This document shows, piece by piece, positions 56,223-60,352 of a DNA stretch of 64,000 nt (positions are counted from its first letter, which is position 1; every line of letters starts with the position of its first letter). The DNA is taken from the NCBI RefSeq assembly GCF_964036645.1, contig NZ_OZ038525.1, positions 1,783,501-1,847,500 on the forward strand, read 5' to 3'. A model generated the notes under the pieces. It saw nothing but the letters and a program-made list of their open reading frames with translations, had not been told where the DNA came from and did no database searches. A program made the position numbers and the translations under genes. This DNA is from Tenacibaculum sp. 190524A02b (GTDB taxonomy: Bacteria > Bacteroidota > Bacteroidia > Flavobacteriales > Flavobacteriaceae).

Positions 56223-56246
56223 TAAATCATTCAAATACCACAAATT

Positions 56247-56282
56247 AAAAAGCTGTCATTGTTCTTCAAATGACAGCTTTTT
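56247..56282 (+). terminator. Intrinsic terminator after galE
   Basis: 14-bp perfect stem AAAAAGCTGTCATT / AATGACAGCTTTTT with an 8-nt loop. Two near copies of this hairpin recur inside the RNA array (58488-58523 and 59716-59752). Confidence 0.85.
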
Positions 56283-56321
56283 ACTATTTAAACTATATAC
56301 TAAAAACTAATGTTTCATTAC

Positions 56322-57526: not shown

Positions 57527-57552
57527 AGCTTCTTATTCAAAACTAGCTAAAT

Positions 57553-57628
57553 AAAAAGCCTACCATTTAACAGGTAGGCTCTTTTAAAATAAAATTGGGG
57601 AAAAACGAAAAATTTCTACCTATCAAGG
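57553..57628 (-). ncRNA. Array RNA unit 1 (type I)
   Basis: Predicted RNA of about 76 nt. It begins with the hairpin ACCT-TGAT-AGGT, has the linker CGTTTTTCCCCAATTTT and ends in the terminator AGCCTACC / GGTAGGCT (57557-57580) followed by five T. The 5' part AGGTAG can also pair with CTACCT of the terminator arm. No ATG frame. It is the unit closest to the aquaporin gene and lies outside the tandem duplication. Confidence 0.6.
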
Positions 57629-57633
57629 TTAGG

Positions 57634-57681
57634 CAAAAATAATATGTTGTCCCCCTACATTTACTACTCTATCAGGTAGTT
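57634..57681 (-). promoter_or_regulatory. Promoter and dyad of array unit 1
   Basis: -7 box TATTTTTG (57641-57634). The palindrome ACTAC-N8-GTAGT (57663-57680) is centred 34 bp upstream of the box centre, i.e. near -41. Confidence 0.6.
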
Positions 57682-57904
57682 CTAATTAAAAAACACAACC
57701 GTGATTAAGAAGTATCTTATACGTGAATTATTCTTGTAAAAGACTTAAAATATAAAAAACTATTATCTAGTGAACTACCTCAAATAAATTCATAAGACTA
57801 TAAGTTTAATTTTGACACACAATCCATGAATCAATATACCTTTTGGCAGTACCCATAAATAATAACAACTTTTTAACTATTAAACTTAAAAACACAATAA
57901 ATAA

Positions 57905-57997
57905 TAAAAGAGGCTACTACATACTATAGTAACCTCCTTAAGTTAATTGAGAAATTTAATTTTATAAATGCCTCTTTTAACCAAACCTTATCCTATT
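57905..57997 (-). ncRNA. Array RNA unit 2 (type II)
   Basis: About 93 nt. Type II body with GGTTTGGTTAAAAGAG, CATTTAT and AATTAAAT, ending in an 11-bp terminator stem (57910-57936; GAGGTTACTAT with ATAGTAGCCTC-type pairing incl. G-T) and then TTTTATT. Includes AAGGAGG inside the stem. Confidence 0.6.
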
Positions 57998-58002
57998 CTA
58001 CA

Positions 58003-58049
58003 CAAAATTAGCACATCCCTTTTCTCTACTCACTATCCTCCTAGATAGT
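58003..58049 (-). promoter_or_regulatory. Promoter and dyad of array unit 2
   Basis: -7 box TAATTTTG (58010-58003). Perfect palindrome ACTATC-CTCCTA-GATAGT (58032-58049), centre 34 bp upstream. Confidence 0.65.
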
Positions 58050-58236
58050 TTTTACGTTCACATGCTTACCTTAACCTTAATAAATATAAATGTACACTTG
58101 AAAAGATAGCTTTATAGTAAAAAACTATGTTATTAATAAAGTCTATTTAAAAATTTTTCATCTAAAAACTTCAGTGATATTTACAGAAAAACAACTCATT
58201 AAAAGAAGTTAGGGATACTCTATTTAAGAACTATTA

Positions 58237-58316
58237 AACAAAGAGACTACTATTAAATAAGTAGCCTCTTTTAAAAGTGAATTGGGGAAAAACGAAAATT
58301 TACACCTTATTTAAGG
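58237..58316 (-). ncRNA. Array RNA unit 3 (type I)
   Basis: About 80 nt. 5' hairpin ACCTTA-AA-TAAGGT, linker TTTTCGTTTTTCCCCAATTC, terminator AGAGGCTACT / AGTAGTCTCT (58242-58269) and TTTG. Confidence 0.6.
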
Positions 58317-58321
58317 TTTAA

Positions 58322-58370
58322 CAAAAATAATACGGTGTAACACTTATATTAACTACCCTACTGGATAGTT
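58322..58370 (-). promoter_or_regulatory. Promoter and dyad of array unit 3
   Basis: -7 box TATTTTTG (58329-58322). Palindrome AACTACCCTACTGGATAGTT (58351-58370, plus strand), centre 35 bp upstream. Confidence 0.65.
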
Positions 58371-58487
58371 ATCTAAAAAGCTAAGTCTACTTTTGAGAAG
58401 TTTTATTATCAATATACTCTATGTTTAAAATTCTAAAAAATACGTTGCACGCTTAAATCAATAATCTCAATAAAAATCTTAAAATGT

Positions 58488-58523
58488 AAAAAGCTGTCAT
58501 TGTTCATCCAATGACAGCTTTTT
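58488..58523. terminator. CTGTCAT hairpin inside copy A
   Basis: AAAAAGCTGTCAT / ATGACAGCTTTTT, 13-bp perfect stem. Almost identical to the galE terminator; sits between units 3 and 4. Its copy-B partner (59716-59752) has one base change that breaks a pair. Confidence 0.7.
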
Positions 58524-58573
58524 AAAACCCAATTAACCAAACAAAACGATAGGTTCTTTTAGAAAAGTTTTTT

Positions 58574-58682
58574 CTAAAAAAGAGGCTACTAAATTAAAGC
58601 GTAGCCTCTTTAGATTCATTAAGGTATTTAATTCATAAATAACTCTTTTAAACCTATTGTAAACCTACTTGTATTAAAAATA
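58574..58682 (-). ncRNA. Array RNA unit 4 (type II)
   Basis: About 109 nt, the longest. Type II blocks ATAGGTTTAAAAGAG, ATTTAT, AATTAAAT are recognisable. Terminator AGAGGCTAC / GTAGCCTCT (58581-58609) with 11-nt loop, followed on the minus strand by TTTTTTA. Confidence 0.6.
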
Positions 58683-58687
58683 CATTA

Positions 58688-58736
58688 CAAAATTAAGTTA
58701 CAATTACTGTTTTTATGCTATCTCATAAGGTAGTAT
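58688..58736 (-). promoter_or_regulatory. Promoter and dyad of array unit 4
   Basis: -7 box TAATTTTG (58695-58688). Dyad CTATCTCATAAGGTAG (58718-58733), imperfect, centre 34 bp upstream. Confidence 0.6.
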
Positions 58737-58825
58737 TAAGCTAATTAACATCCAATCTTCAATATTTAAAATATCTTTTTTAAGTTATATCCTTACCTTT
58801 TTTTAATCTCATCTTAATATTTATA

Positions 58826-58904
58826 TAAAAAATAAAGAGACTATTTATTAAAACAGTCTCTTTTAAAGTAAATTTGGAAAAAGCTAAAAAATATATTTTT
58901 AACG
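58826..58904 (-). ncRNA. Array RNA unit 5 (type I)
   Basis: About 79 nt. A type I variant: GCTAA/TTAGC hairpin at the 5' end, linker TTTTTCCAAATTTACTTT, terminator AAAGAGACT / AGTCTCTTT (58834-58863) and TTTATTTTTT. Confidence 0.55.
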
Positions 58905-58909
58905 CTTAG

Positions 58910-58955
58910 CAAAAATATTTTTTTCTATGCTTATAATTCCTACCCCACTGGGTAG
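58910..58955 (-). promoter_or_regulatory. Promoter and dyad of array unit 5
   Basis: -7 box TATTTTTG (58917-58910). Perfect palindrome CTACCC-CACT-GGGTAG (58940-58955), centre 34 bp upstream. Confidence 0.65.
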
Positions 58956-59132
58956 TTTAATTGTAAAATTTAAACTTTCGTTAATATTAATCTAACTATT
59001 TACTCAAATAAATTCATTAGAATGTAATTTTTATTTTAATACAACCCTTAGGGTGTTATACCTTTTGATAGTCCCCATAAATAATAACAACTTTTTAATT
59101 ATTAAACTTAAGAACAAAACACAACAAATAAT

Positions 59133-59225
59133 AAAAAGAGGCTATCAAATACTATAGTAACCTCCTTAAGTTAATTGAGAAATTTAATTTTATAAATGCC
59201 TCTTTTAACCAAACCTTATCCTATT
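59133..59225 (-). ncRNA. Array RNA unit 6 (type II)
   Basis: About 93 nt, copy of unit 2. The terminator (59138-59164) has two changed pairs, so it is weaker than in copy A, but the T-run remains. Confidence 0.55.
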
Positions 59226-59230
59226 CAACA

Positions 59231-59277
59231 CAAAATTAGCACATCCCTTTTCTCTACTCACTATCATCCTAGATAGT
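59231..59277 (-). promoter_or_regulatory. Promoter and dyad of array unit 6
   Basis: -7 box TAATTTTG (59238-59231). Perfect palindrome ACTATC-ATCCTA-GATAGT (59260-59277), centre 34 bp upstream. The arms are kept although the spacer has changed. Confidence 0.65.
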
Positions 59278-59463
59278 TTTTACGCTCACATGCGTACCTT
59301 AACCTTAATAAATATAAAAGTAAACTTGAAAAGGGAAGCTTATAGTAAAAAACTATGTTATTGATAAAGTATATTTACAAATTTCCACCTAAAAACTTCA
59401 GAAATATTTACAGAAAAACAGTTCATTAAAAAAAGTTAGGTATGCTCTATTTAAGAACTATTA

Positions 59464-59544
59464 AACAAAGAGACTACTATTAAATAAGTAGCCTCTTTTA
59501 AAGGTGAATTGGGGAAAAACGAAAAATTTACACCTTATCTAAGG
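59464..59544 (-). ncRNA. Array RNA unit 7 (type I)
   Basis: About 81 nt, copy of unit 3. Terminator at 59469-59496 is unchanged. The linker CGTTTTTCCCCAATTC is identical. Confidence 0.6.
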
Positions 59545-59549
59545 TTTAA

Positions 59550-59598
59550 CAAAAATAATGCGTTGTAATAATTATGTTAACTACCCTATTGGATAGTT
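59550..59598 (-). promoter_or_regulatory. Promoter and dyad of array unit 7
   Basis: -7 box TATTTTTG (59557-59550). Palindrome AACTACCCTATTGGATAGTT (59579-59598, plus strand), centre 35 bp upstream. One spacer base differs from unit 3, the arms do not. Confidence 0.65.
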
Positions 59599-59801
59599 AT
59601 CTAAAAAACTAAGTCTACTTTTGAAAAGTAGTATAACTGATATGCTCTATGTTTAAAACTCTAAAAAATACGATGCATACTTAAATCAATAATCCCAATA
59701 AAAATCTTAAAATGTAAAAAGCTGTCATTTTGTATATAATGACAACTTTTTAAAACCCAATTAACCAAACAAAACGATAGGTTCTTTTAGAAAGTTTTTT
59801 C

Positions 59802-59909
59802 TAAAAAAGAGGCTACTAAATTAAAACATAGCCTCTTTAGATTCATTAAGATATTTAATTCATAAATAACTCTTTTAAACCTATTGTAAACCTACTTGTA
59901 TTAAAAATA
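59802..59909 (-). ncRNA. Array RNA unit 8 (type II)
   Basis: About 108 nt, copy of unit 4. Terminator AGAGGCTA / TAGCCTCT (59808-59836) has lost one closing pair. Confidence 0.55.
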
Positions 59910-59914
59910 CATTA

Positions 59915-59963
59915 CAAAATTAAGTTACAATTACTGTATTTATACTATCTCATAAGATAGTAT
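59915..59963 (-). promoter_or_regulatory. Promoter and dyad of array unit 8
   Basis: -7 box TAATTTTG (59922-59915). The palindrome is perfect over two 9-bp arms (ATACTATCT and AGATAGTAT, 4-nt spacer, 59942-59963), better than in unit 4. Centre 34 bp upstream. Confidence 0.65.
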
Positions 59964-60054
59964 TAAACTAATTAACCTCCAATCTTCAATATTTAAAATA
60001 TCTTTTTTGAGTTTTATTTTTACCCATTTTTAATATCATCTTAATATTCATATA

Positions 60055-60131
60055 AAAAAATAAAGAGACCATTTATTAAAACAGTCTCTTTTAAAGTAAA
60101 TTTGGAAAAAGCTAAAAATCTATTTTTAACG
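60055..60131 (-). ncRNA. Array RNA unit 9 (type I, possibly inactive)
   Basis: About 77 nt, copy of unit 5. Terminator 60062-60091 has a mismatch next to the loop. Its promoter box has lost one T (TATTTTG), so transcription may be weak or lost. Confidence 0.4.
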
Positions 60132-60136
60132 CCTAG

Positions 60137-60181
60137 CAAAATATTTTTTTCTATGCTTTTAATTCCTACCCCACTAGGTAG
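60137..60181 (-). promoter_or_regulatory. Dyad and eroded promoter of array unit 9
   Basis: Palindrome CTACC-N6-GGTAG (60166-60181) with the usual spacing to a shortened box TATTTTG (60143-60137). Confidence 0.45.
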
Positions 60182-60195
60182 TTTAATTGTAAAAT

Positions 60196-60352
60196 TTAAA
60201 CTTTCGTTAATGTTAATCTAACTATTTCCTCCAATAAAAAGGTATGCTGCGCTTCTAATCCATTTACTTCACTCTGAATTTGCAGCACCTTAATTAACGA
60301 TCGCTCTTTTAATCGAGTTTCTAAGTGCGATTTACGCAAACCTATCCAATCT
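60196..60352 (-). pseudogene. C-terminal remnant of an unidentified coiled-coil protein
   Basis: The minus strand encodes RKSHLETRLKERSLIKVLQI, SEVNGLEAQHTFLLEEIVRL and a stop, without any start codon. The same segment, with frameshifts, recurs at 62946-63103, and its last few codons are also present at the end of copy A. So it is a repeated, eroded 3' end of a once intact gene of unknown family. The 250 bases between it and the next gene (60353-60605) contain nothing recognisable. Confidence 0.5.

Follow-up and report, generated by a model that had tools for sequence, protein, structure and literature searches.

Nine units on the minus strand of a 64,000-nucleotide stretch of the Tenacibaculum sp. 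190524A02b genome (contig NZ_OZ038525.1, positions 1,783,501 to 1,847,500; hereafter the window) appear to be genes for noncoding small RNAs (sRNAs). They would yield RNAs of ~74-111 nt with two types of body, all under one operator and switched on by a quorum-sensing-like regulator, a reading to which we assign a probability of about two in three. The array occupies 57551-60182 of the window, in a genome of 5.04 Mb on a single contig, and each unit (U1 to U9) comprises an 18-bp dyad, a -7 box, a predicted RNA of 74-111 nt and a 3′ hairpin. The genus Tenacibaculum is understood throughout in the GTDB sense.

The dyad, not the box, is what sets the units apart from chance. It has the form ACTAYC-N6-GRTAGT, lies upstream of all nine units and had gone unmentioned in a preliminary description of the array. 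Departures from this form are few: the final T is replaced by G in U1 and U5 and by C in U6, and U9 has one inner mismatch. The boxes reported in that description, TAnnTTTG with one eroded, are indeed found, eight of them intact and the eroded one at U1, and by themselves they are weak evidence, since the minus strand of the array carries 8 where shuffles predict 3.8 and the plus strand carries 5. Searching for dyad and box together, with at most one mismatch in each and a gap of 21-22 nt, returned eight sites on the minus strand of the array (U2-U9, U1 being excluded by its box), none on its plus strand, none on either strand of the remaining window and none in 1000 dinucleotide shuffles. An operator common to all units is well supported by these alignments and counts.

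The spacing of the two elements is also nearly constant: dyad and box are 21 nt apart in seven units, and only in U3 and U7 is the gap 22 nt. Class II activators and lux boxes usually occupy position -42.5. Because the TAnnTTTG box of F. psychrophilum spans -12 to -5 (PMC9723704), the centre of the dyad should fall at about -42.5 relative to the predicted start (-43.5 in U3 and U7).

The same operator led to a gene cassette elsewhere in the genome. A mismatch-free dyad followed by a variable gap and a box has ten genomic matches (reversed pattern, 0), comprising seven array units, two plus-strand matches that overlap array dyads, and one site that is unique in lying outside the array. This last site is 24 kb from the array and precedes a 201-amino-acid open reading frame (ORF), whose promoter carries two dyads of the array variant. 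The encoded protein exceeds the cut-off of the Pfam FeeM family PF21926 (29.9 versus 27 bits). A match to an NCBIfam exosortase-acyltransferase model is far under the cut-off (22.7 versus 111.95). The FeeM assignment is weak, and we refer to the gene as feeM-like at best. A ThiF-like gene lies 3.3 kb upstream of it, and 4.1 kb upstream is a gene for a 252-amino-acid protein with a C-terminal GerE domain, the putative regulator (L043:6945-7703(-), ~28 kb from the array). The genome has two such cassettes, and we call this one cassette 1. All 15 aligned members of the regulator family match GerE at E <= 0.01, and at this threshold none of them matches the autoinducer-binding domain and one matches PAS_3. 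That single PAS_3 match and a separate match to PDB 3clo suggest that the N-terminal half of the regulator may be PAS-like.

The cassette and its operator recur widely in Bacteroidota. Within the genus, the FeeM-like protein is present in 15 of 97 genomes, and among 21 loci the regulator is found at 18 and a ThiF-like gene or its fragments at 19. A scan of the genome collection with the regulator alignment gave 263 relatives, and the following locus statistics rest on the best 80 of these. The 80 loci come from Tenacibaculum, Kordia, Aquimarina, Flavobacterium, Chryseobacterium, Fulvivirga and others, including one bin labelled Candidatus Zambryskibacteria; 62 contain a feeM-like gene and 58 a thiF-like gene. 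Promoters were counted with at most two mismatches in all and a gap of 19-22 nt; each locus contributed a single gene per kind, genes with too little flank were dropped, and a mononucleotide shuffle served as the control. By this count, dyad and box precede 60 of 62 feeM-like genes, 56 of them at exactly 21 nt (1.25 of 62 expected from shuffles), 36 of 58 thiF-like genes (0.7 expected) and 6 of 78 regulator genes (1.6 expected). A relaxed pattern gave 43 sites distributed over all 15 feeM-positive congeneric genomes and two sites in 2 of 14 feeM-negative genomes hand-picked from 82, with four sites in each set for the reversed control.

A comparison of operator variants indicates which cassette may control the array. 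Under a matrix derived solely from the nine sites of the array, the two operators of cassette 1 reach 24.0 and 21.4 bits and the cassette-2 operator 11.9, while a matrix from 94 sites in relatives gives the cassette-2 operator 27.2 bits. U9 scores nearly alike with both matrices (15.3 and 15.0). The half-site is ACTACNCTT in relatives and ACTAYCYNN in the array and cassette 1. The regulators differ too, in a segment that we take to be the recognition helix: cassette 1 has SSNTVKFH where 10 of 15 aligned regulators have SPDTVKFH, and the N at this place is unique to the cassette-1 protein. It is therefore probable that the regulator of cassette 1 serves both its own cassette and the array. The start signals of the array match those of the cassette, and the RNAs are therefore suggested to be part of its output.

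Alignment also reveals how the array may have grown. The units follow the order I-II-I-II-I-II-I-II-I with no exception and fall into subtypes Ia (U1, U5), Ib (U3, U7, U9), IIa (U2, U6) and IIb (U4, U8). U1-U4 and U5-U8 are tandem copies at a spacing of 1222-1228 bp, with aligned limits on the minus strand of 59057..60240 (segment B) and 57835..59013 (segment A), respectively. From this spacing and the pairing of subtypes, a block Ia-IIa-Ib-IIb was probably duplicated, and the ninth unit, U9, is a diverged member of Ib. Between the two copies, 24 of 563 positions differ in the units (4.3%) versus 60 of 612 in the spacers (9.8%; Fisher P = 2.5e-4, or 2.7e-4 with gaps), and this slower change of the units is the best evidence of function. 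From 57526, where the aquaporin ORF ends, up to 60606, no ORF is as long as 60 amino acids. The preliminary description was right that the region is gene-free, that nine minus-strand units of types I and II alternate strictly and that eight of them lie in two tandem segments, and its view of the units as discrete entities of two types gains support from their shared promoters, their 3′ hairpins and their slower divergence relative to the spacers.

A near-identical hairpin, AAAAAGCTGTCATT...AATGACAGCTTTTT, occurs at two places in the array spacers (58487-58524 and 59715-59752) and again after an epimerase gene at 56246-56283.

All unit features lie on the minus strand, and the limits of the predicted RNAs are approximate. 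Of subtype Ia, U1 (60058..60143) has the operator dyad ACTACCTAGTGGGGTAGG at 60165..60182, the eroded -7 box TATTTTGC at 60143-60136 and a predicted RNA at ~60131-60058 ending in a terminator, and U5 (58830..58917) has the dyad ACTACCCAGTGGGGTAGG at 58939..58956, the box TATTTTTG at 58917-58910 and an RNA predicted at ~58905-58830, again with a terminator. The three Ib units share the box TATTTTTG and the linker CGTTTTTCCCCAATT, which is exact in these units only. U3 (59466..59557) has the dyad ACTATCCAATAGGGTAGT at 59580..59597, its box at 59557-59550 and a predicted RNA at ~59545-59466; U7 (58239..58329) has ACTATCCAGTAGGGTAGT at 58352..58369, its box at 58329-58322 and a predicted RNA at ~58317-58239; and both finish with a 3′ hairpin and a poor T run. 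For U9 (57551..57641) the corresponding features are ACTACCTGATAGAGTAGT at 57663..57680, a box at 57641-57634 and a predicted RNA at ~57629-57551 that ends in a 3′ hairpin and T run.

Type II units all carry the box TAATTTTG. In subtype IIa, U2 (59800..59922) combines the dyad ACTATCTTATGAGATAGT at 59944..59961 with a box at 59922-59915 and a predicted RNA at ~59910-59800, and U6 (58573..58695) combines ACTACCTTATGAGATAGC at 58717..58734 with a box at 58695-58688 and a predicted RNA at ~58683-58573, each RNA closing with a 3′ hairpin and T run. In subtype IIb, U4 (59131..59238) has ACTATCTAGGATGATAGT at 59260..59277, a box at 59238-59231 and a predicted RNA at ~59226-59131, likewise with a 3′ hairpin and T run, and U8 (57902..58010) has ACTATCTAGGAGGATAGT at 58032..58049, a box at 58010-58003 and a predicted RNA at ~57998-57902 with a terminator.

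Folding energies of the units are under the shuffle mean for all nine (z from -1.7 to -4.9); that of U4 is matched by 10 of 200 shuffles. Where the preliminary description saw an intrinsic terminator in every unit, a 3′ hairpin is present in all nine, but a strict terminator scan accepts only U1, U5 and U8, the hairpins of the remaining six being predicted by folding. Its type I linker is confirmed for the Ib units, while the 5′ hairpin it ascribed to this type is predicted in U1, U5 and U7, is weak in U9 and is absent from the U3 fold. It had also proposed looking for compensatory changes, and double changes that preserve pairing do occur: they affect 3 of the 12 stem pairs of type I and 2 of the 19 of type II. 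This support is modest because only five and four related sequences, respectively, are available. Rfam holds the Rsm, Qrr and LhrC families, and nothing in the window scores as high as the gathering threshold of any Rfam family, in keeping with the earlier remark that no described family has this plan. No ORF is common to all units or to the whole of either type, and type I units lack any ATG ahead of the terminator; the frames that exist are TTG frames of 19 codons in U9 and 13 codons in U4 and U8, and an ATG frame in U2 and U6 that reaches into the terminator. When pairing between types was evaluated for four pairs, three were no better than shuffles, and U5 with U2 gave a duplex energy of -16.1 versus -12.5 ± 2.7.

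We propose that a GerE-type (LuxR-like) regulator, most likely the product of the cassette-1 gene named above, would bind the dyad and activate a sigma-A promoter in the manner of class II activators. The FeeM-like enzyme probably supplies the signal in the form of an N-acyl compound, whose build-up would turn on the feeM-like gene and the nine RNA genes together, giving a high, graded dose of RNA. These RNAs would work in trans; base pairing is the most likely mode and the one we take as the default reading of their role, and types I and II may have different targets. The sequence itself shows the units, their operators at fixed spacing, the tie to the cassette and the slower change of the units, whereas binding, transcription of the units as RNAs, the identity of the signal and the mode of RNA action are all put forward here from sequence features.

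Several observations weigh against this proposal. The -7 box of U1 is eroded and the T runs of U3 and U7 are poor, and activation is presumed as the direction of regulator action. The operator is not confined to the array and cassettes: with a fixed 21-nt gap and at most two mismatches there are 13 genomic matches (reversed control, 0), of which eight are array units, one is the cassette-1 site, one is at cassette 2 and three are unassigned, one of these (652964) preceding an ORF. The dyad alone occurs at 11 places; the array accounts for five of them and cassette 1 for two, and the remaining four lie outside both (reversed control, 2). The thiF-like promoter of cassette 1 has only a degenerate dyad. 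Pfam FeeM matches just 6 of 16 aligned members of the enzyme family at E <= 0.01, and a profile of the family finds nothing in the PDB at E <= 1, despite the deposited FeeM structure cited in PMC9654057.

No target signal emerged for the RNAs. Complements of the type I linker with at most two mismatches number 97, three of them in the array itself, which is barely above the 86 of the reversed control, and duplex energies of five of the nine units against 87 nearby gene starts, taken from stretches of this genome (the window, L042, L043 and L078), are no better than those of shuffled RNA. Model searches, run with stricter filters that lose weak matches, covered 166 genomes for type I and 97 for type II. 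They found no convincing type I copy in the other 165 congeneric genomes, where five weak extra matches are terminators only, and no convincing type II copy in the other 96, where one weak extra match is again only a terminator. A DNA search of 59 genomes gave short weak matches in 13 others, and the best of these (G020) shows nothing unit-like on inspection. The conservation in related genomes that the preliminary description had looked to as a test is thus not seen, and because no convincing copies were found in the other congeneric genomes searched, conservation between species cannot be shown. The best reading is that the array is lineage-specific and recent.

Among other explanations, the array could serve as a DNA decoy. 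Its nine operators would then chiefly sequester the regulator and fix the level at which the feeM-like gene is activated, with the short RNAs as by-products. The imbalance between nine array operators and two at the feeM-like promoter would suit such a role, as would the failure to find a target signal in the linker-complement and duplex-energy analyses. However, every operator has its box at a set distance (that of U1 being eroded) and a 3′ hairpin within ~110 nt, and whole units, including their transcribed parts, have changed less than the spacers. Because a decoy needs neither box and hairpin nor a slowly changing transcript, we consider this explanation unlikely.

A second alternative is an RNA sponge for a protein, as with RsmX/Y/Z toward RsmA/CsrA, in which many copies provide the dose. 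GacA has a GerE-type domain. Its upstream activating sequence, TGTAAGCATTCTCTTACA, is an 18-bp palindrome with a 6-N6-6 layout, and tandem rsmX copies and duplicated sRNAs of ~100 nt are described in Pseudomonas (PMC4353343 and PMC7911923). The array follows the same plan, with a GerE-type regulator, an 18-bp palindrome of 6-nt arms and a 6-nt centre upstream of 9 of 9 units, and several duplicated sRNAs of ~100 nt. Yet it differs in operator sequence, phylum and partner genes and has no Rfam match, and the repeated GGA motifs of a sponge are absent, with none in seven of the nine predicted RNAs and two each in U4 and U8 (one without the terminator). A CsrA sponge is accordingly rated low for want of these motifs, and we regard the sponge reading in general as improbable.

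Spreading of a promoter-terminator repeat without function would agree with the occurrence of the units in this genome only, but it would explain neither their divergence at under half the spacer rate nor the fit of their operator variant to the cassette-1 promoter, and we think it very unlikely. The slimmest chance is given to the units being leaders or micro-ORF transcripts instead of trans-acting sRNAs, for although like promoters in relatives precede hydrophobic ORFs of 21-28 amino acids or a leader and then a NusG-like gene, and short frames do exist in U9, U4/U8 and U2/U6, these frames are missing from some sister units of their type, no ORF is shared, type I has no ATG ahead of the terminator, and none of the units is followed by a gene, only the convergent aquaporin gene lying beyond U9.

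The sRNA interpretation allows a broader and more tentative proposal, for which we would not offer even odds. A cell-to-cell signalling system spread across Bacteroidota, consisting of a FeeM-like synthase, a GerE-type regulator, a ThiF-like enzyme and a lux-box-like operator at -42.5, may have gained a nine-gene, two-type sRNA array as an output arm in this species, which would make it the equivalent, in a distant phylum, of the sRNA circuits of quorum sensing. The cassette resembles LuxI/LuxR systems in having an acyltransferase-type gene, a GerE regulator and a palindrome near -42.5 at the promoter of that gene (60 of 62, with the start deduced from the box). It differs in that the enzyme matches FeeM, the Pfam family of N-acyl homoserine lactone synthases being unmatched by the cassette-1 protein (E <= 1) and by 16 family members (E <= 0.01), in that the regulator has no autoinducer-binding match, and in the added ThiF-like gene. 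Its resemblance to FeeM N-acyl amino acid synthases lies in the score of the cassette-1 protein above the PF21926 cut-off, tempered by the weakness of that match, its restriction to 6 of 16 members and the lack of a PDB sequence match.

Other multi-copy sRNA systems provide further points of comparison, and the array shares its general plan with Qrr, RsmX and LhrC sRNAs yet belongs to none of these families. LhrC of Listeria comprises tandem, near-identical sRNA genes under one regulator, whereas the array has two alternating body types, another regulator and no Rfam match. The Qrr genes of Vibrio have sigma-54 promoters and are controlled by LuxO. They encode sibling sRNAs in a quorum-sensing circuit (PMC7911923). 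The array resembles them in its several sibling sRNAs and its quorum-sensing-type circuit and differs in its TAnnTTTG-type boxes, GerE-type regulator and lack of an Rfam match. The reported synthesis of N-acyl glycine in Bacteroidales (PMC5643525) offers a parallel in that an N-acyl amino acid is made in Bacteroidota.

We recognized no description of this cassette or array in the literature searched, which excludes most subscription journals, and an earlier description is possible. In our judgement, neither sRNAs nor acyl-type signalling have been much explored in Bacteroidota. With its precise operator, the array gives a regulator that has 263 relatives an output that can be read, such that signal, regulator and regulon are jointly testable. 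Moreover, one operator placed over nine RNA genes of two alternating types bears on the origin of multi-copy sRNA circuits.

Further promoters and sites were also noted. Downstream of the feeM-like gene, a third cassette promoter (L078, L084, L076, L090, L080) precedes varied genes, namely those for an outer-membrane beta-barrel, a radical SAM protein, an O-antigen-ligase-like protein and a NusG-like protein, and because of this variety the cassette appears to be coupled to one output here and another there. Near regulator relatives that lack a feeM-like neighbour, the dyad and box stand before hydrophobic micro-ORFs of 21-28 amino acids at 7 of 18 sites inspected (L137, L139, L142, L151, L179, L186:7570 and L193:16799), which are candidate membrane or signal peptides.

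Some dyad-driven leaders have sequences in common, as judged by eye. Those at L088:8402, L088:8775, L141:8363, L198:8948 and L200:9047 share a sequence of the AGTTCATTGA or AGTTCTTTGA type, and a NusG-like antiterminator gene comes next after the L200 leader. Leaders at L155:9184, L165:9147 and L275 (~1700) share a GGCCAAGG...GACC...ATGTCT pattern and stand before short peptide-like or lipoprotein-like ORFs. Pattern matches outside the cassettes in congeneric genomes G082, G098, G012 and G111, with ACTACGGAAACCCGTAGT or a similar sequence, were set aside by eye as another motif or a terminator. This palindrome recurs in the four genomes, mostly followed by a T run. Finally, the host genome has a near-consensus dyad at G000:C1:652964 (L035), located 21 nt from the box-like TACTTTTA and before an ORF, which may be a further target of the regulator.

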